Assembly (NCBI GenBank): GCA_036172665.1
Contig: CM069869.1
Coordinates: forward strand, 5,580,001 to 5,644,000
Direction: 5' to 3'
Source: Prosopocoilus inquinatus
Lineage: Eukaryota; Arthropoda; Insecta; Coleoptera; Lucanidae
Length of the DNA stretch: 64,000 nucleotides
The position numbers and the translations under genes were made by a program. Of the stretch, positions 3,995 through 62,423 are shown piece by piece. The notes under the pieces are model-generated. The model searched no databases. It saw nothing but the letters and a program-made list of their open reading frames with translations, and had not been told where the DNA came from. The number at the start of each line of letters is the position of its first letter. The first letter of the stretch is position 1.

Positions 3995-5573
3995 ATGCCG
4001 AAAGACAATTCGAGCCTGGTTAATTCCTGGATCAGAAGCTATCCCGAGCTTGCTTACACCAATGGAAGCGTATTCTGTAAAGCCTGTAGTAAAATGGTAA
4101 GTTTTAAGTTTGTTTTCTTCCTCCTTAGGTAAATATTTGCTTGGTTCTTGAATATTGAAAGTTCAGACAGTTTAAAAAAATTTAAGTTCTTGTTGTAGAT
4201 ACCAACCCAACGAAAATTTTCGGTCACACATGTCGGGACAGAACTACACAAGTCAAAATGCAAGAAGATGAATGAATCGAAAACATTTCAATTACCCTTA
4301 GACAGTGGACCGTCGTTGATGACTTCATCTAATGAACAACAAGAATTTAATGCTGATTTATGCGAGGCGATGATTTGTGCAAACATACCTTTGAAAAAAC
4401 TGCAAAATTCTATTTTTAAAAGTTTTTTGGAAAAATATACCAAGAAAAATGTTCCCGATGAAAGTACGTTAAGAAAAAATTACGTGCCTCGCATCTCCAA
4501 CGATACTCTAAAAGAAGTCAAGAAAATGGTAGAAAATCAATATATTTATTTTATTGTGGATGAAACTACTGATTCTTGTGGGCGTTACATTGTAAATTTG
4601 TTAATAGGGTCTTTGCGGGAAGATAAACCTAGTGAATCTTATTTAATAGCCTGTACACAGTTAAACAAAACTAATCATTTAAGTATTTTAAGATCTGTTA
4701 ATGAATGTTTTATGAAATTTTTCTCACCTAATGTAGTTCCTACTGAAAAAATTTTACTTATGGTATCAGATGCTGCCCCTTACATGGTTAAAGCCGGGCA
4801 GCAATTTAAAACAATTTATAAAAATTTAGTTCACGTGAGTTGTTTAGCTCATGGATGTAACAGAGTAGCTGAACATATTAGATGTGAATTTTCTGATGTA
4901 AATCTACTAATTAGTACCATTAAAAAAATATTTGTCAAAAGTCCCCTACGAGTTCAGTTGTACAGGGAAAAATTGCCGAATGTACCTTTACCTCCCGAAC
5001 CAGTGTTGACTAGGTGGGGAACTTGGTTGGAAGCGGCAATGTTTTATGCTGAACATTTTGTAGCAATTAAGGAATTGGTTGTAGAGTTTAATGCCCAAGA
5101 TAGTGCTGCTATTGCAAAGGCACAAAATATTGTAACAAAAACTTCATTGGCAAATCAACTGAACTTCATCAAAATGCATTACAGTTTTGTAATATAAACT
5201 ATAAACAATTTAGAAAAACCGAAAATGTCTTTAATAGAATCCGTTAAAATTGTTAAAGAATTTAAAGAGAATATTTCAAAAGTTCCAGGTAAAATCGGCA
5301 GTTCAGTAAATAAAAAATGTTTATCCGTTTTAGATAAAAATAGCGGCTTCAAAACCCTTGAGGAAATTTACGAAATTTTGAATGGAAACTTTGAAATTGA
5401 CTTGTGTAGAATTTTCAGCTATGAGTCACTTTAAATATGCCCCAATTACCTCCGTGGATGTTGAAAGGAGTTTTTCAATTTATAAAAATATTTTGTCAGA
5501 TAAAAGGCAAAATTTCCTGGTAGAGAACTTGGAAAAACACATTGTTGTAAATTATAATCGAAGATTTTTGTAG
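3995..5573 (+). pseudogene. hAT transposase (BED finger + RNase H-like core + hAT C-terminal domain), broken
   Basis: Exon 1 (3995-4096, 34 codons) starts at an ATG and holds the first half of a BED-type zinc finger, FCKACSK. A 102-bp GT...AG intron (4097-4198) keeps the frame. Exon 2 (from 4199) completes the finger with H-x5-H. The core shows VDETTDS (first catalytic Asp), VSDAAPYM (second Asp), SCLAHGCNR and LTRWGTWLEAA. A TAA at 5195-5197 interrupts the frame, which continues afterwards. A frameshift at about 5390-5420 then leads into the C-terminal dimerisation region with the diagnostic SVDVERSFSIYKN and catalytic Glu, ending at 5573. The family resembles hAT genes related to vertebrate CGGBP1; that is recalled, not computed. 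Apart from the two lesions the reading frame is well preserved. Confidence 0.85.
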
Positions 5574-12955: not shown

Positions 12956-14934
12956 ATTGATTTTTACGTTCACAAAACCACGATATTAAATGCAGGTAAG
13001 CAAGAACTTCTTATACCAATTACCAAAGATTCTAAAACCTTTTGGCAAACTTTAAATTTTTTTCGTGGTTCTAGAAATACCGGCGCTTTACCAGGTGATT
13101 GTTGGGAAACTTATTACAACAATTTAGTAGTTCAAAAGTCTGATTACTCTATTGAATTCTTTGATGCTAGGCATCCCTTTTTGGATAAGCACATAGATCT
13201 CGAAGAATTAGAGTTCGTAGTGTCTGCTTGCAAAAATAACAAAGCACCTGGTCCTGATGGGATACCTTTTGAATTCTTTAAGAATCTTCCACAAAATTGG
13301 ATGTTTTATATCATTAATCTCTTTAAGAAAGTCTTGGAATCGGAAAGTGTTCCCTATGAATGGACCACCATTTCTCTTACGATGTTGCATAAAAAGGGCC
13401 CTATGGATGCTCCTTCCAATTATAGAGGCATTGCGTGCATTAGCTCCATTTTAAAGCTCTTTACGACCATTTTACTCAATCGTCTGACATCTTCAATTGA
13501 CATCAACACTATTCTACCAGAAAATCAATCCGGATTTCAAAAATCTAGATCTTGTCTCGACAATGTTTTCACACTAAATAGTGTAATTCAAATTCAACTT
13601 CATCGAAAAGGCAGAAAAGTGTGTGCTACTTTTATTTATCTTAAACGGGCGTTTGACTCAATCAATCATGTACTGTTATGGGATAAATTGTTCAAACTGG
13701 GTGTCAGTGCGAAACTTCTAAGAATAATACAGTCTCTCTATTCTAACGCGACTTTCTGCATAAAAGCTTTCAATGGTTTTACCAAACCCTTTGAAGTAAA
13801 TGAGGGAGTGTTACAGGGTGAACCCCTAAGTCCAACTCTATTCGCCCTTTTTATGGCTGATATTGAAATCTACTTTCGTGACCGTGGTGCAGTTGTCGTC
13901 AACATATATCATCACCACGACTTATATTATTGTTGTACGCAGATGATCTGGTGCTTCTAGGTATTTCTGAAATTGATTTAGCGCGAAAACTAAATCTTCT
14001 GGAGAAATATACTACAGAAAATAAGCTTACTGTAAACGCTGCTAAACCAAAAATAATTTGCTTCTCTAGAGGAAATTTCAGAGTCAATCGGGCGCACCGT
14101 TTCCTCTTTAATGGTGCCGAAATCGAACTAGTCAACAATTATATATATCTAGGGGTTTCTCTCTCTTCTTCTTCTCTCTTCTGTAAACATGCAGCAATAT
14201 GCCTCTCCCAGTCAAAATAATCAATTGGAGCCGTTATGTCACTGTTATCGCAGTCAAAAACAAACTCGTGGGACGCACGCATCACTTTATACAATACCGT
14301 TATAGTCAATGCACTATCTAATTGTATCCCCGTTTGGGGTCTACGTTATTCAAACATTATTGAGAGAGCCCAAGTCGGATTTTTTAAAAGACTACTCTTG
14401 TTACCAAAAAACTCTTCTGATTATTTAGTTCGCTTAGAAGTGGGTGCGGTTAAACTTGAGTACCTCATTGTAAAACACTGTCTAAACTGGCTTCTAAAAA
14501 TTCTTAAAATGGAAAATAGCAGATTCCCAAAAATCGTCTTCAACCAACTGCTAAAGATACAAGATACTAATCTTGTTAAATTTAACTGGGCCTTACAAAT
14601 GAAAGGTATTTTTATAAAGGTTAATTGTCTGGACACTTGGAATTCTCTTTCCGTCGGACACCTTAAGGCATCTCTTAATAGAATTTTGTCTCGCTACCGA
14701 CATAAACTCTTTGACGAAAACTTGGAAAGACTTAAACTCTCAGAGTTCGCGCTCTATAAGTTCTTCGTCATCAAATCTAATCCAGCTCATCATTTATATT
14801 GCCCTCTACCAATAAAACTAATTCGACTTTTTTCTCAGCTGAAAGTGTGGAGCACATATTTCTTGAAAGCAAGCTTTACGAGAGTATTAAAGGTCCAAAA
14901 ATCAGTCACTTGCAAAATTTTGACGAACTCATAA
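12956..14934 (+). pseudogene. LINE reverse transcriptase remnant
   Basis: The frame is open from 12956 without an ATG. RT fingers and palm show NNKAPGPDGIPFEFF (13240-13285), NYRGIACISSILKLF, ENQSGFQKSRSCLDN, FIYLKRAFDSINH (usually LRKAFD) and NEGVLQGEPLSPTLF up to about 13850. A frameshift between about 13890 and 13930 moves the catalytic box LYADDLVLL into the next frame. A TAA at 14218-14220 then interrupts the thumb/C-terminal region, which continues to 14934 in the same frame. The YADD box is intact; the gene is not. There is no sign of a downstream RNase H. Confidence 0.78.
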
Positions 14935-24241: not shown

Positions 24242-24529
24242 GTCATGAAATGTCCAAGCCCATTTGTTTTAATTACAGAAAGCTGTAGTCACCGTCCCTT
24301 GGTAGTAACTTAAATACAATTGTAAATGAGTTATATTATTATTTTTTTTTCAATTTTTATTGAAGTTATTCGATGTAATAAAGTGTACATTATAGGATTT
24401 TTTATTATTTTTTGCACTGATGATGCTAGAAGTTGTATTGTTATGACTCCAGATTATTATTATTCTTTCCTTTATACTATACTCACTTTAATTAATTAAA
24501 AAATAAATTAGTCAAGTCGTTCTCGGTTT

Positions 24530-24618
24530 GCAGTGGGAATTTCGAGTTACGTTTCTGCTGATGAAGCCCCAAATAGGGCTGAAATAGTTGTACAGAGGCT
24601 GTTCGAGGTTTTCACTGC
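24530..24618 (+). ncRNA. Type I hammerhead ribozyme, copy 1
   Basis: The catalytic core is complete: CTGATGA (24558-24564), stem II AGCCC/GGGCT with loop CAAATA (24565-24580), GAAA (24581-24584). A short stem III follows, with the predicted cleavage after TA at 24592. Stem I pairs CTG/CAG next to the core, then an internal loop, then TCGAG with CTCGA-like and GCAGTG with CACTGC. The helix extends outward through CAAGTCGTT paired with AACGATTTG. Stem III is weak here (T-G in place of C-G), so activity may be reduced compared with the copies near 40 kb. The CAAATA loop is the same as in Schistosoma hammerheads (recalled). Confidence 0.8.
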
Positions 24619-26219
24619 AATCAAAAACGATTTGCAACAATTTTTTTTAAATTAGTTACATTAACAAATTAGAAAAACAGATGGGAATATGACTCATTTG
24701 AAAATAGAAAATAAAATACATGCAGCTGAGAGCTTATATGTATAACGAAAGCATTAATTAAGCTTAAAGTATACTAAGAAATGAGATCATATTACATTAA
24801 TAAAAATAAATCTTGCATCTTGCAGTCTAATAAAATGATAAGTCAGCCGCTTTCAGCGCAGCTTCCAGTATTAGCTTAAGCTAACCACGTCACCCAGAGA
24901 AATATAATAAACATTATAAGAGAGATAGAGAGAAAGGTAAAGTCAGTTCCGAAAGTGACTTTGTTTGTTTGACGCCGCGCGCGCCTCAATTTTCCTCGTC
25001 GAGAAATTCTCACAAATTCAAAATTCGTCTTCTATCAGTCAATTTTCCTAGTTGAATTCAAATACTTTCCTACTTTAATTCAAATAAAGTGTACCTAAGA
25101 AGCATCCACAACTGGCGAGAGTGAGTTTGAAGAATAAAGAATCGTTGTTGCTTAAAATCTAGCATCTAAATAAAGCCTATAAACGTGTAATGATATTTCT
25201 TTTGTGATTTTCCCTTCTCTCTTTCATATTCCAGTTTCCATTTTGCGTTAGTCGTTAAGTTTTAATTATTCAGACAATTTTATTAATATTTATATAGTGT
25301 TTGTACAAGAAAGAAAGAAAAATTCAATTCAACCACCCTGTAATTGTAATTAACTGTTCACATTTATCAATTGATACACAAAATTTTCTCTTATGTTTGA
25401 ATATACAGGATGTGCCAACACTGTTTTTTTGGGTAATATCTCGATAACTACTGAAAATCCAAATAAAGTTTTGTTGAAACTATTGACAGAATTCTTGTCT
25501 TGGACTCATATGCAAATCAAATCAAATAATAATAATAATAATAAATCAAATCATCATTTATTGGATCAAAAGATGATCAGGTCAAATATACAATCAAATA
25601 ACAAAACAATGTGTTCTATAAAGTACGAAACAAAACTTACGTACATTCAGAATAACAAGCTTTAGTCAAGCAATTCTGTAATTCTGTATTAAGACTTTTC
25701 AAGTAAATATAATTTTAATTTCCTTTCCAGGATTGCCATGCTAACTTCTTGCTACCTTTCTTTCTGGAATTTATGAATATGTTAAAATCTCACACAAGCT
25801 TTGTGATGTTGGATGGTTAAATATGGCGTTTCCATTCTCATTTTTAGTATCACAAAATTTTAATCACACGAACTTCACCACATCTTTATAATAAAATCAC
25901 GTTCAGAACGGATGATCACAATATAAATATTCGTCGAAAAGATCTTATTTCACTGCATCATCATTTTGTTTACAAAATCCTTTATGTTGCAACGTAGCCA
26001 TGTTTTGGAATAACATCCCTTCGCAAGTAAAAGAAAAACTCAAACCATCTAGATTTAGCTATTCCGTGAGCAATTAGCACAGTTTGCCTACAACTAATAG
26101 GAGTACATATTACTTTTCATCAAGCTATTCTATTTGTCTTTGACTTCTCTTCTTACCTTAATCTCCTCCATACGGAAGATTAGACGTGCTCTACAGCCGA
26201 ATCTGAACCTGCACCTATT
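24619..26219. other. No gene recognised
   Basis: AT-rich sequence. ACAGGATGTGCCAAC near 25406 resembles the ACAGGGTGT termini common in arthropod DNA transposons, and a short (AAT)n run follows at 25527. No second end was found. Confidence 0.35.
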
Positions 26220-39960: not shown

Positions 39961-40261
39961 CTCCCCACAAATTAATAAAGCCAACCTTGGCTTCGTCCCG
40001 AAATACGGGAAGGGTTCAGACGAATCATAATCATGGTGTCGTAAATCAAAGCCAACCAAGTATAAGGTGACGTCAAGAGACACCAATGGCGTTAAACGCA
40101 GGGTGGCCAGATTTTTGTGAAGAAAAAAAAGATTTTGGAACAGTTTTTTTTAATTTCCAATTTTGTAAAGCCACGGGACTTTTTAAGGAATTTCTCCACT
40201 GAAGATTACAGAAAACTAATACTTATTGAAAACAATGAATATTATATCTCGAACTTAATAA
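39961..40261. other. No gene recognised
   Basis: Short link between the ACTTAAA-rich repeat and the hammerhead-bearing repeat. Nothing was identified. Confidence 0.4.
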
Positions 40262-40298
40262 TTATTTTAGAAAAATTTTGTGCAAATCGTTTTGGATT

Positions 40299-40387
40299 GC
40301 AGTGAGAACCTCGAGCAGCCTCTGGACAGCTGTTTCAGCCCTGCTTGGGGCTTCTTCAGCAGAAACGTAGCTCGACATTCCCACTGC
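40299..40387 (-). ncRNA. Type I hammerhead ribozyme, copy 2
   Basis: On the minus strand the sequence is identical through the core to the copy at 40811-40899: CTGAAGA, stem II AGCCC/GGGCT with loop CAAGCA, GAAA, stem III CAG/CTG, cleavage site TC. Stem I has its internal loop and outer helix in place. It lies in the inverted arm of the compound repeat. Confidence 0.88.
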
Positions 40388-40810
40388 AGACCAAAAACGA
40401 CTTGCCCAATTTATTCGCAAATGCGATGTAAGAATGATGAACATATAAAATAGCGACATCTTACTATCGCTTTTTGACCTAACATTGCAGTAGGATAGAC
40501 AAATTGAAGCGGGATTTGCTCCTAATGAGTCCCCCATGCAAGGCGGCCATGCTTGCTGTCAAAGCCTATCCTACTGCAATGTTAGGTCAAAAAGCGATAG
40601 TAAGATGTCGCTATTTTATATGTTAATAATTATTATTTGATGGAAGTACGATGTACACAAATTTTTACTAAAACTTAATACCTTCATTCGAAAGACAATA
40701 AATCAGAGAAATTTTTAAAATAATTTGCATATATTTATATATTTATATTTTAAATGTTCATCATTCTTACATCGCATTTGCGAATAAATTGGGCAAGTCG
40801 TTTTTGGTCT

Positions 40811-40899
40811 GCAGTGGGAATGTCGAGCTACGTTTCTGCTGAAGAAGCCCCAAGCAGGGCTGAAACAGCTGTCCAGAGGCTGCTCGAGGTTCTCACTGC
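40811..40899 (+). ncRNA. Type I hammerhead ribozyme, copy 3
   Basis: Core CTGAAGA at 40839-40845, stem II AGCCC (40846-40850) with GGGCT (40857-40861), GAAA at 40862-40865. Stem III CAG/CTG is at 40866-40871, with predicted cleavage after the C at 40873. In stem I, 40836-40838 pairs with 40874-40876. An internal loop of 7 against 5 nt follows. Then 40823-40828 (TCGAGC) pairs with 40882-40887 (GCTCGA), 40818-40820 with 40890-40892, and 40811-40817 with 40893-40899. Outside, CAAGTCGTTTTTG pairs with CAAAAACGATTTG. Stem III has no loop, as in animal retrozyme and Penelope hammerheads that act as dimers (established knowledge). No core base is missing. Confidence 0.9.
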
Positions 40900-41175
40900 A
40901 ATCAAAAACGATTTGCACAAAATTTTTTTAAAATCTTTCATTATGCTTTGACAGCAAGCATGGCCGCCTTGCATGGGGGACTCATTAGGAGCAAATCCCG
41001 CTTCAATTTGTCTATCCTACTGCAATGTTAGGTCAAAAAGCGATAGTAAGATGTCGCTATTTTATATGTTAATAATTATTATTTGATGGAAGTACGATGT
41101 ACACAAATTTTTACTAAAACTTAATACCTTCATTCGAAAGACAATAAATCAGAGAAATTTTTAAAATAATTTGCA

Positions 41176-44096: not shown

Positions 44097-45250
44097 TTTA
44101 GAAGTTGGTAAGAAGAAGAAGAAGACCGGGAAGAAACCGAAAGGAAACGGAATTAACACAAGATTCGATTTCTTTGAATCTTATCCACTCTGGTCTTCAT
44201 CTTATTAATTTCTTCATTTAGAATTCGATAAGGAAAAGACTAGAACGCTATCGAGTTGTCATTTGAAATTTAAGATACTTCTTGTCGAGTCCTTCACCTT
44301 CTTTCTACCGCATTTTGCAACTGTGTTTGCTTTCTCTTTTGATTTCTTTCCATCTTGCCAGCTTCCTGGTCCTCTTCCTACGAATTCTTTATTCAGAATT
44401 CTTGCTCGCTTCCTGGTCTTTTTCCTATCGGATTCTTCATTTAGAATTCGGCAAGAAGAAGAAGACCAGGAAGCGGGCATAACGAAAAGAAACCAAAAGG
44501 AAACGGAATTAACACAAGATTCGGTTTCTTTCAATCTTGTCCGCTTCGTGGTCTTCTTCTTGTCGATCTTCTCATTTAGAATTCGATAAAGAAGAAGACC
44601 AGAAAGCGAGTAAGATGGAAAGAAATCGAATCCAATCGAGTACTTCATTTAGAATTCAAGATTCTTCTTGTCGAATCCTTCATCTTCTTTTTACCGAATT
44701 TTGCAACTGTGTTTGTTTTCTCTTTTGATTTCTTTCCATCTTGGCCGCTTTTTGGTCCTCTTAATATCAATTATTTATTCAGAATTCTTGCTCGCTTCCT
44801 GGTCTTCTTCCTATCGGATTCTTCATTTAGAATTCGGTAAGAACAAGCAAACCAGGAAGCGGGAAAGACGAAAAGATACCAAAACTAAACGGAATTAACA
44901 CAAGATTCGGTTTCTTTCAATCTTGTCCGCTTCGTGGTCTTCTTCTTGTCGATTTTCTCATTTAGAATTCGATAAAGAAAAAGACCAGAAAGCGAGTAAG
45001 ACAGAAAGAAATCGAATCCAATCGAATTCTTCATTTAGAATTCAAGATTTTTCTTGTCGAATCCTTCACCTTCTTTTTACCGAATTTTGCAACTGTGTTT
45101 GCTTTCTCTTTTGATTTCTCTCCATCTTGCCCGCTTCCTGGTCCTCTTCCTATGAATTATGTATTCAGAATTCTTGTTCGCTTCCTGGTCTTTTTCCTAT
45201 CGTATTCTTCATTTAGAATTCGGTAAGGAGAAGAAGACCAGGAAGCATTT
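44097..45250. repeat. 386-bp satellite array built of foldback modules
   Basis: The anchor TTGCAACTGTGTTTG occurs at 44315, 44701 and 45087, exactly 386 bp apart, giving roughly three unit lengths. Within each unit, arms of the type CGCTTCCTGGTCTTCTTC and its complement GAAGAAGACCAGGAAGCG alternate around centres such as TTCATTTAGAATTCGG, making two or more hairpins per unit. The 5' end is more diverged and compressed. The array stops abruptly at an arm (CCAGGAAGC, 45248). Confidence 0.85.
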
Positions 45251-45344
45251 ATGATAATGAATTTAATGATTACACTTGTAAAAAATTTTGGCTGTATTTT
45301 TGGATATGGCATATTTTTATGATATTATGAGAGTGTAGCCATTG
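45251..45344. other. No gene recognised
   Basis: Short AT-rich link. Confidence 0.4.
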
Positions 45345-47400: not shown

Positions 47401-48153
47401 ATGTATCACAAGGATTACTTTGCTCTTTGAAAATACAACGTTTTTTTAATCTTGAACCGGACAGAAATATGATGGGAAACCACTCAACGTTTCGCTATAG
47501 ATTTATAATTGGGCCTGCTAGCTCTTAGGGGATGAGGGCTGGGAGGCTGAAAATTACATCTTCAAATGATGATTTAAAAATAAAAATAGACCTGTATGAG
47601 CATTTTTATGAAACATTTTTCTTAAACATTTTATAGAATTTATCCGTTACTTTTGGGAAACTGATTAAATTACTAACCCGCTACAAAATATTACCATCGG
47701 AAGTGTTAGCGTTTTATTTCACCAGTTTGAATAGGATGAAAGTGGGGTGTAAATCACGTGATTATTTGCGTAGTTTTCTGTTGGATAAAACTTTTTGTGT
47801 CACGTCAGTTCAATGCGGTTTACACTTGAGTCACGTAGAAGTGCCTACGCAGCTTAAGAAATACGCATGTATGTTTTTTTTAACGTCACAAGCAAGAACG
47901 AACTCCAATCGACTTGTCTGTTTACATCCATCTCCGACATTGTTCAGTTGGCATTATTTGACAGTAAGGAGAGATTGTGCATAATCATGTACCTAATCAT
48001 TAAGTAATATTTCAGTTAAATAGATCCACATTTTTTTGTTTACTTTCTTAAGCTGTACAAGGCCCATGTAGAAGATTGTCGAACAAGTGCCGATATGAAT
48101 TTCAGCGCAGTCTTTCCAAGTTTTTTGCATTTTTGCGAGGATCGTACGATATG
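47401..48153. other. No gene recognised
   Basis: TTTTTTTAATCTTGAACCGG (47440) with the following CAGAAATAT matches about 34004-34035 inside the Gypsy remnant, so a short unnamed repeat is shared. The rest is AT-rich and unassigned. Confidence 0.4.
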
Positions 48154-48155
48154 TA

Positions 48156-49650
48156 CAGAGTGGACCATTTTTGATGGTTTTACCAGGTTTCTCAGTTATT
48201 TATAGGAATAGAAGAAAACCGTTTTCGCGACCCAATGCTACTTTTTCAAGAAAAACTCAGTGGAGAAAACAAAAGTTAGCTATCTCCATTCGTTCGGGAA
48301 ATATCGGTCGAAAACGAATTTTTCCGAAAAATGATTTTTCACAATATCTCAACTGTTTGACAAGATATTTTGAAAATTCAAAAACTGTTTTATTCAGAAA
48401 TTAATGTAGATTTCGCTGACGTTATTGTCTTTTGTAAAAACTGCGCCAGTTCTGCGAAATAGACTATAACTTTCTAATTTTAAATGGAAACCGTAGTTGG
48501 CTATGACATAAATAAATTGTTTCTTTAATGAGGTTTTCAAAAATATAAGGTTTGATATAATTATTTTTAAAAATAACAAAGATATCAATTTTCATTATTT
48601 TGCAGTACTTATCACGCAATGACAATAAAAACAAAAGAAAATTAGTTGTTTTCCTCAAAAATCTATTATTAGAATAAATAATACAGGTAATTAAATTTAG
48701 CAAAATAAATATCTAATGCTATTAGAGAACTCATAAAACTATAAGTAATGTAAATATGGATTAACTATTAATGCAGCTTTGAAGAATTATATGTTATATG
48801 TTCCTTTGAAATTATTAAATCTTAAATTTTATATTATCAAAAATTCTTAGATATGTTTATTTCACTTCTATCCGCGATTACATTTATTAATATACAAAAG
48901 TTCTTGAAACCTTTATTAAACTTAGGAAATATCCGACAATTCAATTATTTCTTAAAGAAATGCACTAACTTATGCAATTTAAAATTTATAAAAATCTCTT
49001 AACTATTCACATTAATAATTCAAGAAATGTTCAAATGGAGTTAATCCATTTTTACGTTCTTGTGATTTTATGTCAGTTTCTGATAGATATATGAAGCTAT
49101 TTATTTATTGAATTAAATTTTATTTAATAATAATTGATTTTTGGGAAAACAATTGAACTATATTTTTTGTTTTTGGTGTCATGGATGGCTTGTTAGCTAC
49201 CGGAAAATAAAAAATAATAAGTATCTTTATTATTTGAAAAAATAATTATATCAAACTTTATATTTTTGAATACCTCATTAAATAAGCAATTTATTTGTGT
49301 CATAGCCAACTACGGTTTCTATTTAAAATTAGAAAGTTATAGTCCGTTTCGCAGAACTGGCGCAGTTTTTACAAAAGACAATAACGTTAGCGAAATCTAC
49401 ATTAATTTCTGAATAAAACAGTTTTTGAATTTTCAAAATATCTTGTCAAACAACTGAGATAGTGTGAAAAATAATTTTTCGGAAAAATTCGTTTTCTGCC
49501 GATATTTCCCGAACGAATGGAGATAGCTAACTTTTGCTTTCTCCACTGAGTTTTTCTTGAAAAAGTAGCACTGGGTCACGAAAACGGTTTTCTTCTATTC
49601 CTATAAATAACTGAGAAACCCTGTAAAACCATCAAAAATGCACCACACTG
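48156..49650. mobile_element. Foldback-type DNA element with ~450-bp terminal inverted repeats
   Basis: The left arm (48156 to about 48600) and right arm (about 49200 to 49650) are inverted copies with over 90 % identity by eye. Termini are CAGAGTGGACCATTTTTGAT and CAGTGTGGTGCATTTTTGAT. TA lies on both outer edges (48154-48155 and 49651-49652), matching a TA target duplication. The middle 600 bp is AT-rich with no coding frame. Frames inside the arms mirror each other and are not genes. Confidence 0.85.
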
Positions 49651-49652
49651 TA

Positions 49653-50134
49653 CGTCCGTAAACTCAATCATTGACAAATGATCATTAAGAACAAATCGTA
49701 CGATTCCTGTTAATATGTATAGAATAATAAAATTAAAATCATAATAATAAATAAACAAGAGACGCTCGATTTTACAACGCGATATTTCAGGCATTCCCAA
49801 CCTTCGAAAAAGAAAAAAAAAAGGGTTCGTCAACCCTCTCCTCCATTTCAAGCTTGAAATAACATGTAAGCCAGTATGTGAACAACTTTATTCCCTAGGA
49901 AGAAAATATATTATTTCTGTCACGATTTTCGTCTCGTTTACTATAAACTAAATTTCTAATACTTGAAATTAAATTTCGAATTTAATAATAACAATAATAA
50001 TAATAATAAACTTTTATTAAGTACAAGTAACAAAAGACTGTCCAAAAGGTGAAAAGAAAAAAAAATTTTGTACCTAATTGGTAGCAGAGTCAGATGGTCT
50101 AACAAAGTTAGGCCCCTGACCTTCCCGCTGCACC
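49653..50134. other. No gene recognised; short (AAT)n run
   Basis: Contains an imperfect (AAT)n tract at 49985-50009 and otherwise unassigned AT-rich sequence. Confidence 0.45.
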
Positions 50135-50136
50135 TA

Positions 50137-51498
50137 CCCAAGCAGCAAGCAGTCGTTTTTATCACGTCATTATTTGGTCAAAATTGGTCAAGGACGTCGA
50201 ATGACCAGTTTTTAACGTAATTTTTTCGTAAAAATTTTGTTTAAAATTTGACGTTTATAAATCACGTGAATAGAACGTCAGTTTAATGACATAAATTTGA
50301 CACTAATTTTAAAAAAGTCTCGTTTCGATAATAAATTTAGGTATAGATTTGACAAGATATTAGATTTTGTAGGAAAATATAAATTATAAACATGATTGAA
50401 TTTATTAAATAATACCATTTTAATACATAAGAAATGTACTAGACTTCTGATATCTGATACGGGGTATGCGACGCATATCGTAATCGTAGTGCCCGTGGTC
50501 CTTAAGTTTTGTGCAATTCGTTTTTAAGCGTTTGACGTACAAAAACGACGTCGCCGGGCTGTGACATTTGCCCGTCATTTTTACGTCTTTAATACGTCAT
50601 TGACATTGGTCATTCGACGTAAACGATATTTGAATAAAAATTAAAATATGATTTAGTTTTTTAGTTTTTTGGTTACTTATGCGTCATAGGTAGATAGATA
50701 GTTATAGATTAAAAATGACGTCAGAAATACACGACTGTTTGACGAACAAAAACGACGTCGCCGGGCTGTGACATTTGCCCGTCATTTTTACGTCTTTAAT
50801 ACGTCATTGACATTGGTCATTCGACGTAAACGATATTTGAATAAAAATTAAAATATGATTTAGTTTTTTAGTTTTTTGGTTACTTATGCGTCATAGGTAG
50901 ATAGATAGATATAGATTAAAAATGACGTCAGATATACACGACTGTTTGACGAACAAAAACGACGTCGCCGGGTTGTGACATTTGCCCGTCATTTTTACGT
51001 CTTTAATACGTCATTGACATTGGTCATTCGACGTAAACGATATTTGAATAAAAATTAAAATATGATTTAGTTTTTTAGTTTTTTGGTTACTTATGCGTCA
51101 TAGGTAGATAGATAGTTATAGATTAAAAATGACGTCAGAAATACACGACTGTTTGACGAACAAAAACGACGTCGCCGGGCTGTGACATTTGCCCGTCATT
51201 TTTACGTCTTTAATACGTCATTGACATTGGTCATTCGACGTAAACGATATTTGAATAAAAATTAAAATATGATTTAGTTTTTTAGTTTTTTGGTTACTTA
51301 TGCGTCATAGGTAGATAGATAGATATAGATTAAAAATGACGTCAGATATACACGACTGTTTGACGAACAAAAACGACGTCGCCGGGTTGTAACATTTTCC
51401 CGTCATTTTTACGTCTTTAATACGTCATTGACATTGGTCATTCGACGTAAACGGTGACCAATCTTTGACGTGAAAGAGACGACACCTTGCTGTTTGGG
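50137..51498. mobile_element. TIR element containing a 207-bp tandem array, 1362 bp
   Basis: The ends are CCCAAGCAGCAAGCAGTCGT and, inverted, CCCAAACAGCAAGGTGTCGT, continuing with similar TCACGTCA and TTGGTCA words for about 45 bp. TA flanks both sides (50135-50136 and 51499-51500). There is no coding frame. The interior right part (from about 50530) is a tandem array. GACGT/ACGTC words are extremely frequent through the whole element. Confidence 0.8.
50541..51460. repeat. 207-bp tandem repeat, 4.4 copies, with an alternating two-unit pattern
   Basis: AAAAACGACGTCGCCGGG starts at 50541, 50748, 50955, 51162 and 51369, always 207 bp apart. Units 1 and 3 share GATAGTTATAG and GTCAGAAATACA; units 2 and 4 share GATAGATATAG and GTCAGATATACA. 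The array therefore evolved by duplication of a 414-bp dimer. Each full unit carries a palindromic TGACGTCA. Units are almost identical, so the amplification is recent. Confidence 0.95.
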
Positions 51499-51519: not shown

Positions 51520-54290
51520 ATATTCTATATAAGCGCACATGAGAAAAAAAAAGACAATCACATGAATTATATTGTAACTGAAAATTAACTGTAATTCATT
51601 ACAAAATTTAGTCACGTAGAAGCATGGCTTTTAACTTTTTACTGAAGTATGGAGATGAGAACATTAAGAGGCCACGTGGAAGATTGTTCATAATATTTGT
51701 GATACGATAACTAAAGGATCCCTTAAAGGATTCATCGGTGTGGTTCGGTATGGAAAGAAGTCCCCGATTCCAAATATTAAGATTATGACCATCCGTGCAA
51801 TATCTAATTTTATTATAAAGATACGGTGGGCATTTATATGTTAGGACCTTGTGGTAAAAAACAGCAGTATGTAAATACCTTCTATTTTTCATGTTCAACC
51901 AGCCTAATTCTTAGTTTGTGTGAAATGTGCTGTCTGCGTCTTACACCAAAAATGAGACGCATACAAAAAACTCTCTGTACTCTGGCTGAGTCAGAATAAG
52001 ACGGAAATGAATCGAACACAATATCACAATAATTTAAATGGGACAAAACAATAGTTTCGCACAACATGACTTTAATATTCCTTGTGAGATATTGACGATT
52101 CGCAGCATAGAGTAATTTTAAATTCGTAAATGCTCTTCGAATGACTGCTGAAACATGATTAGTAAATTTAAGATTAGAATCTAAGTGCAAATCCTAGTTC
52201 TTACAACTGTCTGAGATATAAAGAGGAATATCACCTAAGCGTATATCTAAGATTTTCACCACGTCTGCACGAGAATTTTCCTTACCGCATATTAGAAAAG
52301 TAGTTTTCGAAGAATTGAGTCGAAAATCGTGCTTTTCAGAAATTTGCATCAAATTGTTAACATCCTCATTGACATACTGACTAGCGATTGAAGCTTCACT
52401 AGCCCCAAAAGAACAGTATAGCTACGTGTCATCAGCGTACAAATGGTAGTTGCAATGCTTAATTACTTCCAATAACCTAGAGGTGTATGCAGTGAATAAT
52501 AAAGGTCCCAAAATAGACCCCTGTGGAACACCGCATTTAACTTTGAGAGAATCAGATAACTCTCCATTAAAATAGACTTTTTGTGACCTTTCTGAAAGGT
52601 AACTAGCGAAGAAATTCGTGGCATTGTCACTAAGACCTACTGATTTTAAAATAGCGAGCAAGATGTCATGTTTAATAAGACCGAACGCTTTCGAATAGTC
52701 TAGTAACACTAATAGAACATATCTGTTATCATCCAAAGCAGTGACAATGTCATCAGTAATAGTAGTTAGAGCACTAGAACAGCTGAAATGTTGCCGAAAA
52801 CCCGACCGCTTTTCAAGAAATAAATTATGAAGGGTAAGAAATTGTCTCAATTGCTTTTCAATTACCATTTCAAGGACTTTAGAGAGCACTGGCAGTATAC
52901 TAATGGGACGTACATCCGTTAAAGATTCGGGATGGTTATTCTTCGGCAACGGTAACACTCGCGCTTCCTTCCACCTCATAGGAAAAACACTATGGACCAT
53001 GCAATAATTAATTATATGTTTAAAAATTGGCAAGAGATATGGACAACAAAAGTGTAATAAATCAATACTAAGACCGTAAGAGTCAGACGCCTTACTAGAA
53101 AAGTTTAAGAGAATTTTACAAATGTCATCTTCTGTGACTGGAGAAAATGCAAAACTTTCATTCGTGATGGGATTGTTTACATAGAAATTTATCAGTTGGG
53201 TAGAATCAATATCATCACATAAAATGGAACTTCAAAAATGCTGATTGATTGTATTTGCATTGCCAAGACTTACCGGTATAGCAACCTTCTTGCTATTGCA
53301 AATGCCAAAATTCTTAAGGTGTTTTCAAATAGCATTAGCATTGCAATTCATAACCAAATATTCTAAGCAGGCTTTATTTTCGGATCTAACAGATAAAGTA
53401 ACTAAATTTCTTAAGATTTCGTAATGCAGCCAATATTCTTGGAGTTGTGTACGTTTAAACTTTTGTAAAGCTTTATTGTGCAAATCCATCATTAACTTTA
53501 AGATAGGTGTAAGCAAAGGGCAAAATTTAATCGAAGCCTAACGTGGTTTGAGGGGTTTGTGTATATCAAACAGTTGCAAAAGAAACTCAATTTTCATGGT
53601 CAATATTATCAAGTCACCATTAAAATTATTCATATGCTTGAAGTCCCGATAAGAAAAAAGAGATGTATGATTGTCAGGACGTTTAACTGGAATCATGCAC
53701 CAAATTAATGATTGATCGGATGAGCTAATAGTATCCATTACACCAGATTCCAGGACATTATTGGAATTTGTAATAATATGGTAAATCAATGTAGAGGTTC
53801 TCATAGTTATACGAGTTGGGTGACTTATAATTTGTTTAAGATCCAGCGTATCCAAAAGTTCAAGATATTGTAGAGCCAAGAACCAAGAATATACATACAA
53901 TCATAAGACGCAGACAGTTTCAGCACGACCTCTTCAAAATAGGGTAAGAAATCGGCATAGTTGTAATTAGGCGGTCTATATACAACTGCAATTAAGATAC
54001 ATGTATTTTCAAAAGTTAACTTGAGCCACATATGTTCAGTAAAAGGTGTTATTTCTGAAATAACTAACGAAAATTTTAAATACTTATTGACGTAAACACC
54101 CAATCCACTTCCATTTCGATCAAACCTAACAAATTTGAAGTTTTCAATTTCAAGTACATTACAGCGCATATTATTCGAAAGCCATGTCTCGGATAAGGAA
54201 AAAATATCAATATTTCTTAGGCGAATGAGTCCACCTTCCCTAAACGACAAGCTTGTGACGCGGCATGTTAAATTTCGATTAAGAGAACGA
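51520..54290 (-). mobile_element. Third LINE (non-LTR retrotransposon), minus strand
   Basis: Endonuclease, linker and reverse transcriptase regions follow in order from 54250 down to 51608, with few breaks. It is the best preserved LINE in the window. The 5' end lacks the first part of the endonuclease. There is no obvious (ATT)n tail. Its 3' end lies only some tens of bases from the satellite-bearing TIR element. Confidence 0.8.
51608..54250 (-). pseudogene. LINE ORF2: endonuclease plus reverse transcriptase, lightly broken
   Basis: The endonuclease shows DIFSLSETWLS, SGLGVYVNKYL and LIAVVYRPPNYN (53825-54250). The GDFN motif is damaged, and SDH is SDQ (ISSSDQSLIWC near 53730), removing a catalytic His. 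The linker runs through 53325-53516 to 53034. RT blocks are DVRPISILPVLSKVLEMVIE, KRSGFRQHFSCSSAL, LLDYSKAFGLIKHDIL, CGVPQGSILGPLLF and YHLYADDT (52422-53033). A stop right after YADDT and another near 52195 interrupt an otherwise continuous frame. A frameshift near 51900 leads to the final stop at 51608. RT catalytic residues are intact. Confidence 0.8.
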
Positions 54291-62010: not shown

Positions 62011-62329
62011 AGAAGGAAGGGTTTGTCTTATCTTGTCCGCTGTGCTTTGCGTAGTCCCCCGGTATTAACTGAGTTGGGTTCAATAACGAACAGAACAAAC
62101 AGCCATGGGATCTGAACCCACGCTGTAACGTGACACGACCTCCTGTAAGGAACCTGAGATCGTACTTTACAAAATTTCCTTAGCCTCAATTTTTTTTAAA
62201 CATGCATTTCAGTAGTCACAGGTGTGAATCCGATGCGATACGAGTGCATCGATTGATTCAGAAGCCTTCAGTTTTCTGAGCATTTAAATAAGCATCGGAA
62301 AACGGAGATAATTAACACCTTAACAGATA

Positions 62330-62392
62330 AAACAGCGACATCCTACGATCGCTTTTTGACCAATCAAAAACGATTTGCAACAGATTTTTTTA
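62330..62392 (-). repeat. Truncated fragment of the hammerhead-bearing repeat
   Basis: AGCGACATCCTACGATCGCT followed by TTTTTGACC matches the inverted B block at 40451-40480. It is joined directly to AATCAAAAACGATTTGCAA, the outer stem I strand of the ribozyme block. The ribozyme core itself is missing. Confidence 0.6.
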
Positions 62393-62423
62393 ACACCTTA
62401 ACATTGTGTAAAGTGGGCAAGGG

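Follow-up and report, generated by a model that had tools for sequence, protein, structure and literature searches.

A putative self-cleaving hammerhead retrozyme with foldback insertions in the genome of the beetle Prosopocoilus inquinatus

Introduction

A window of 64,000 nucleotides from the beetle Prosopocoilus inquinatus (C1:5580001-5644000, in an assembly of 649,647,856 bases) contains an 89-nt module that had been read, from the letters alone, as a complete type I hammerhead self-cleaving ribozyme. This raises the questions of whether the motif is real, what kind of element carries it and how such an element could move. Published work is cited here from excerpts. Animal retrozymes are described there as having no conserved motif that reveals an autonomous mover, and Penelope-like elements are named as likely candidates, the reason being that type I hammerheads occur in both and that the two co-occur (PMC7761336). 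The question of mobilisation is testable here because one genome offers thousands of copies whose order can be read, a sample with readable ends and duplications, and an apparently young GIY-YIG family of like order.

Results

A hammerhead motif in three copies

We scanned the window for the full motif, defined by the core letters, a stem II and a stem III of at least 3 pairs each, A15.1-U16.1, an N17 other than G and a stem I of at least 4 contiguous pairs. Exactly three places were found (Table 1), at the positions and with the sequence of the original prediction, and the invariant core, stem II, short stem III and cleavable N17 that it had described are all present. A chance motif is ruled out, since 300 first-order Markov windows gave no match. 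On the plus strand, positions 40839-40873 are composed of CTGAAGA, stem II (AGCCC-CAAGCA-GGGCT), GAA, ACAGCTGT and C17, and positions 24558-24592 of CTGATGA, loop CAAATA, GAA, ATAGTTGT and A17. Both distinct window copies carry 11/11 of the invariant letters (C3 U4 G5 A6 N G8 A9, G12 A13 A14, A15.1-U16.1), with N17 not G, and the window copies have three helices with stem I open to the flanks. A stem I internal loop and a CAAATA-type loop II were also observed. Judged by eye, part of stem I is lost in three copies sampled elsewhere in the genome (L011, L017 and L024).

Table 1. Features of the retrozyme family in the window (positions are those of the 64,000-nt stretch)
Feature	Position	Strand	Basis or remark
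Predicted type I hammerhead ribozyme, stem I to stem I	40811..40899	+	sequence, fold, motif scan, Rfam alignment, copy comparison
Catalytic core, stem II, stem III and N17 (C)	40839..40873	+	predicted cleavage 40873/40874
Second hammerhead copy	40299..40387, core 40325-40359	-	core letters identical to the 40839-40873 copy
Third hammerhead copy, diverged	24530..24618, core 24558-24592	+	N17 = A
Inverted retrozyme segment, starting at the U-tract site	40264..40568	-	blast blocks
Plus segment with right end GATGTCGCTATTTTATATG of the 40264 insertion	40566..40635	+	continues into the right target duplication
Left target-site duplication TTAATAATTATT	40255..40266	.	terminal repeat comparison
Right target-site duplication TTAATAATTATT	40623..40634	.	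terminal repeat comparison
Insertion carrying the third hammerhead copy	24504..24656	+	9-bp TAAATTAGT at both ends
Core-less relative	62312..62403	-	inverted left end fused to right end, 14-bp TTAACACCTTAACA flanks
One complete retrozyme unit, 312 nt, GC 43%	40757..41068	+	as long as one genomic tandem period (311-312)

The 40811 and 24530 copies differ at 10 of 89 nucleotides. These changes alter none of the 11 invariant letters and break none of the 33 pairs, 5 of which become G-U, so that the diverged copy, with its CAAATA loop, keeps the pairing as had been claimed; when the same 10 changes were placed randomly, this degree of conservation was matched in 0.4% of 50,000 trials. Over 136 nt, the two distinct copies show 18 differences and 5 broken outer stem I pairs (2.2% in the random-placement test), and between these two copies outer stem I is less conserved than the 89-nt module. 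We confirm that the hammerhead motif at 40811-40899 is real, with the copies listed.

Rfam scores and predicted folds

The original prediction had named the lack of a covariance-model match above threshold as one half of its refuting condition, and at Rfam gathering scores this half went against the prediction: neither the window nor any of 7 sampled loci carrying copies gave a match. The best match, RF00163 Hammerhead_1 at 40833-40879, reached 23.8 bits against a cutoff of 34 (E 3.6e-4 for 89 bases, core aligned to core), and the same model scored 15.3 bits at 24552-24598 and 18.9 bits in L026, both below the cutoff; these sub-threshold scores were obtained on short stretches with an E-value threshold, and the gathering cutoff is a scoring threshold, not a biochemical definition. 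When 901 bases were searched, the sole hammerhead family listed was HH9, with 14.5 bits on each of two copies. The pair 10.1-11.1, usually G-C in hammerheads, is A-U in the main family.

Compared with shuffles, the 89-nt hairpin folds 5.3 sd lower, and the long stem I contributes much of the difference. The predicted minimum free energy structure of the monomer (-48.2 kcal/mol) is not the hammerhead: it is a hairpin in which stem III pairs with part of the core, and hammerhead-constrained folds reach -42.2 and -43.3 kcal/mol. For two molecules of the 40811 copy, the predicted co-fold (-100.3) consists of two hammerheads with a common 8-bp stem III. A double-hammerhead co-fold is not predicted for the 24530 copy. 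All of these fold predictions take no account of tertiary contacts.

In a 7-row alignment, 88.1% of cells are paired compared to 32-44% (maximum 43.7%) for slid structures, and 6 pairs show two-sided change (shuffles 2.1, sd 1.2); the structure was derived from one of the 7 rows, a choice that favours it. One row (L007m) is a near duplicate of another (c40p) with shifted ends, and the alignment leaves out L011 and L024, in which stem I is incomplete, as well as the minus window copy, whose core is a duplicate. A further test made use of the DNA palindrome ACAGCTGT, in which C15.2->T keeps a U-G pair and G16.2->A breaks the pair, these being the identical mutation on opposite strands. For this one pair, 230 pair-keeping and 242 pair-breaking changes were counted (p 0.61), with no excess of the former. 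Genomic copies therefore decay without visible selection on the 15.2-16.2 pair, and any constraint would be that of a few source copies.

At L017:5764-5790 (minus strand) we noticed a diverged hammerhead in which the 10.1-11.1 pair is G-C, stem III is a palindrome of 10 nt (ATAGCGCTAT) and N17 is G. In this copy U-A replaces C-G at 15.2-16.2 and the 5' part of stem I is gone; it perhaps represents a second subfamily.

Altogether, the data support a type I hammerhead as the best reading of the motif, with a loopless palindromic stem III that appears suited to dimer action and with self-cleavage predicted, because the core is intact in independent copies, the pairs are kept and a dimer co-fold is predicted for the 40811 copy.

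An abundant 312-nt unit

Using a core pattern of 27 letters and allowing at most 2 mismatches, we counted 11,797 + 11,907 = 23,704 matches in the assembly, or 36 per Mb, and none with a reversed control. An exact 35-letter pattern with paired stem III and N17 not G gave 7,248 + 7,236 = 14,484 matches (control 0). These counts rest on patterns that cover the core and stem III, not stem I; a word-based DNA search with the 89-nt module skips common words and returned 0 matches, the window's own copies included. A pattern scan of viral contigs gave 0 matches. Within a 364-kb sample (the window and 30 further stretches), 11 core-like places were found, of which 8 are without mismatch and 6 pass the strict scan. 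In the pieces examined, namely the window and 7 loci, the Rfam gathering cutoff thus misses a hammerhead family that is matched more than 20,000 times in the genome.

Head-to-tail pairs of units, counted with a tandem pattern, number 1,622 + 1,802 = 3,424 in the assembly (control 0). The first 100 tandem places listed fall into 62 arrays, the longest run being 13 units, and among the first 100 core matches listed all same-strand neighbours closer than 1 kb (6/6) are spaced 311-312 nt apart. One array, at C1:13287509-13291269, consists of 13 hammerhead units with a 312-nt period on one strand.

As a circle, the 312-nt unit has a predicted folding energy of -112.1, compared to -75.7 (sd 8.5) for 60 first-order Markov shuffles. 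The longest ATG frame of the one unit followed on a tripled circle is 96 aa, and the unit has no reverse transcriptase or GIY-YIG ORF. Several traits by which animal retrozymes are recognised were found: tandem units in the range of about 150-450 bp, each with a single hammerhead, a GC content under 50%, no long frame and duplications above 4 bp. Judged by its sequence, the 312-nt element is an animal-type, non-autonomous retrozyme, in agreement with published animal retrozymes. It is very abundant in this genome and is a new variant by virtue of its foldback architecture, with ribozyme cleavage and circles predicted.

Sampled insertions are mostly minus-plus foldbacks with recurrent ends

Neighbouring copies show a strong bias in order. 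Among the first 100 core matches listed, neighbours closer than 1 kb comprised 17 minus-plus, 0 plus-minus and 6 same-strand pairs, and strand changes inside the 62 listed arrays were 10 minus-plus and 0 plus-minus. Genome-wide, inverted neighbours counted for gaps of 120-150 only were 179 minus-plus versus 18 plus-minus.

We delimited 17 sampled insertions and oriented them with their common end at the right. They remain from 19 stretches after removal of L017, whose divergence prevented delimitation, and of window 40746-41090, a continuation of the 40264 insertion; the weak pieces L022:4338-4406 and L028:6843-6894 were not counted as insertions. The right-end motif is found in 16/17 insertions, and the left-end motif in 9/17 by script and 11/17 by eye, with L022 and L028 added. 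By-eye reading placed an inverted segment at the start of 13 of the 17 insertions, and 11 of these start at the U-tract; when 13 ends were placed randomly, 11 never fell within 14 nt in 20,000 trials, the observed end positions being those read by eye. L021 and L025 have their inverted start away from the U-tract. The four insertions without an inverted segment (L003, L009, L011 at 7610 and L026 at 2658) are plain 5'-truncated copies.

Exact terminal repeats of at least 10 bp occur in 8/19 own end pairs versus 12/342 cross pairs, and one of the eight (L011 at 7609) comes from an insertion of 40 bp that overlaps itself. Eight target duplications of 9-14 bp are 84% AT, compared to 64% for the window; a 9-bp duplication is near chance level, as 31/342 cross pairs reach 9. 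The 24504 insertion lacks the right end, and its 9-bp TAAATTAGT pair is either a target duplication or an overlap of the unit by a few nucleotides, other copies having a similar flank. In several insertions, judged by eye, the 3' end of the target agrees with the U-tract of the RNA (TTTTAG vs CUAAAA), as twin priming predicts.

Two stretches of the window, 40566-40729 and 41012-41175, form a 164-nt direct repeat that is 100% identical; it comprises the retrozyme right end and about 94 nt of flank and recurs after the second plus unit. A matching foldback at L007:4740-5500 is without the flank piece of this repeat.

A GIY-YIG family as candidate partner

A search of the assembly with the PF01541 (GIY-YIG) profile gave 2,232 first-look candidates, and the 150 that were scored all lie above the cutoff. 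Among these 150, open frames reach up to 788 aa with no internal stops, and close pairs (<10 kb) comprise 47 minus-plus, 1 minus-minus and 0 plus-minus. The many matches of equal score suggest young copies. From its domain, frame size and order, this family is likely an EN+ Penelope-like element. A regular expression for a GIY-YIG zinc motif had no match in the 364-kb sample, so that no partner sequence was seen in it. The 11 GIY-YIG matches on C1 below 16.3 Mb were compared with 52 of the first 100 tandem places and 7 of the first 100 core places listed; none lies closer than 10 kb to any of these, and therefore the retrozyme and its candidate partner showed no physical link there.

In order, and in order only, the retrozyme copies share the inverted plus direct, head-to-head arrangement of Penelope-like elements. 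Rotifer Penelope elements have head-to-head inverted and direct pLTRs with duplications of 8-10 bp, and pLTRs are enough for mobilisation in trans (PMC3846280). At AT-rich targets the lizard Penelope-like element PAc cleaves both strands and extends both, with a start inside its RNA (PMC11167929).

Discussion

We consider a retrozyme with hammerhead cleavage, circles and both-strand priming by Penelope-type machinery to be the probable best explanation of these results. It takes the motif, copy number, tandem period, order bias, sampled ends and duplications and the presence of the GIY-YIG family as observed; cleavage, circles, both-strand priming and the partner enzyme we infer. The 312-nt unit would be transcribed and its RNA cut by the hammerhead at the predicted site (40873/40874), mainly as a dimer via the palindromic stem III. 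The cleaved RNA would probably be circularised, and a reverse transcriptase could then copy it at a chromosomal break, primed from both target strands. One target strand would prime at the UUUUAUCUG site, which would become the right end, and the other might often prime at the U-tract AAAAUUUUUUUAAAA, which would become the left end. Joining of the two cDNAs mid-element would give the minus-then-plus foldbacks, and copying beyond one turn would give the 312-nt tandem arrays. The most likely enzyme would be the Penelope-like element suggested by the GIY-YIG frames, whose copies show head-to-head order too. A more tentative proposal, to which we give somewhat less than an even chance, is that a Penelope-like enzyme routinely primes from both strands of a target break, at two dedicated sites of one circular ribozyme RNA, that the self-complementary foldback rather than a simple copy is the normal product and that the palindromic stem III allows two units to cut each other. 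If true, the two-site, both-strand geometry would also account for the inverted repeats of Penelope elements themselves.

The same order could in principle come from a LINE that moves the retrozyme by ordinary target-primed reverse transcription, in which twin priming, and hence 5' inversion, is frequent. Twin priming yields minus-plus order and junction microhomology (PMC2912911), as seen here, and reverse transcriptase frames that we read as non-LTR lie inside the window. We nevertheless find LINE-driven movement unlikely: about 30% of human L1 insertions are inverted, and inversion is rare for Alu and SVA according to a heading of that source (PMC2912911), whereas in our sample of 17 the inversion share is higher (13/17) and the left priming site nearly fixed, with 11 inversions from one site. 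Nor was any right-end match found 3' of a reverse transcriptase match in the 364 kb, a small sample searched with one set of reverse transcriptase query proteins; L021 carries a retrozyme insertion on the upstream side of such a match, at a distance of about 400 bp.

A ribozyme that is catalytically dead or too slow, in an element that spreads as linear RNA, seems improbable. Such a state would fit the A10.1-U11.1 pair in place of the usual G-C, the weak monomer fold and the Rfam score below the cutoff, and ribozyme mutants of PAc were unaffected in insertion in vitro (PMC11167929). Against it, the 14,484 exact matches retain the invariant letters and a cleavable N17, and Dolichopoda hammerheads show compensatory changes at 10.1-11.1 (PMC2837043). 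We give hardly any credence to a foldback DNA transposon (MITE), a long hairpin with an accidental hammerhead-like core, even though the copies are long inverted repeats with target duplications. The preservation of core, stem III and N17 in so many exact matches speaks against it, as do variable duplication lengths and variable inner junctions, and a simple MITE is ruled out by the 312-nt tandem arrays and the plain 5'-truncated insertions.

The Penelope-driven retrozyme that we favour can be set beside several known systems. It resembles the animal non-LTR retrozymes of Acropora, Mytilus and Ambystoma in its type I hammerhead, many copies, GC below 50% and duplications above 4 bp (PMC7229834), and its 312-nt tandem unit compares with retrozyme RNAs of about 170-400 nt known from animals (PMC7229834). 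According to that source a coral has more than 6,000 hammerhead motifs, a mussel about 5,000 and the axolotl 126,247 (PMC7229834). Unlike in those retrozymes, head-to-head minus-plus foldbacks are a main form of copy in our sample; one of their ends is fixed and the other is often fixed as well. The palindromic stem III of this insect motif could serve as an 8-bp helix between two molecules, while for most invertebrate motifs an ability to cut as monomers is described (PMC7761336).

With Penelope-like elements and the hammerheads of their pLTRs, the beetle retrozyme has in common a hammerhead repeat, a full or partial tandem and an inverted repeat at one end, as well as head-to-head order, AT-rich targets and short duplications (PMC11167929, PMC3846280, PMC7761336). 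It differs in being a 312-nt unit without a long ORF and in having a full stem III, whereas Penelope-like hammerheads are described in these excerpts as minimal, without helix III or loop contacts. The Dolichopoda pDo500 satellite likewise is an insect repeat with a type I hammerhead in which 10.1-11.1 changes occur; its repeats of about 500 bp are termed satellite DNA, and the excerpts describe no foldback insertions (PMC2837043). In the open-licence PMC literature we found no paper joining twin priming with hammerheads, or hammerheads with Penelope and Coleoptera.

Other features of the window

Several further repeats and coding pieces lie in the window. Reverse transcriptase pieces, non-LTR by our reading, occur at 12956-14559 and 51972-53231 on both strands, and the second-best match of the part at 12956-13957 is a Diabrotica protein with 51% identity. 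A DUF659 transposase-like frame at 4199-5197 has a best match of 90% identity, and its named matches include beetles (Abscondita, Brassicogethes, Photinus, Tenebrio), ants and aphids. Because both belong to mobile elements, these proteins give only a weak placing of the host, as an insect and perhaps a beetle. A 1.5-kb stretch at 48153-49653 shows an 81% match to its own reverse complement. Tandem repeats are found at 50530-51453, with a period of about 207 bp and copies 96-99% identical, and at 44259-45330, with a period of 386 bp and 3 copies that are 74-90% identical to the first over 300 nt.
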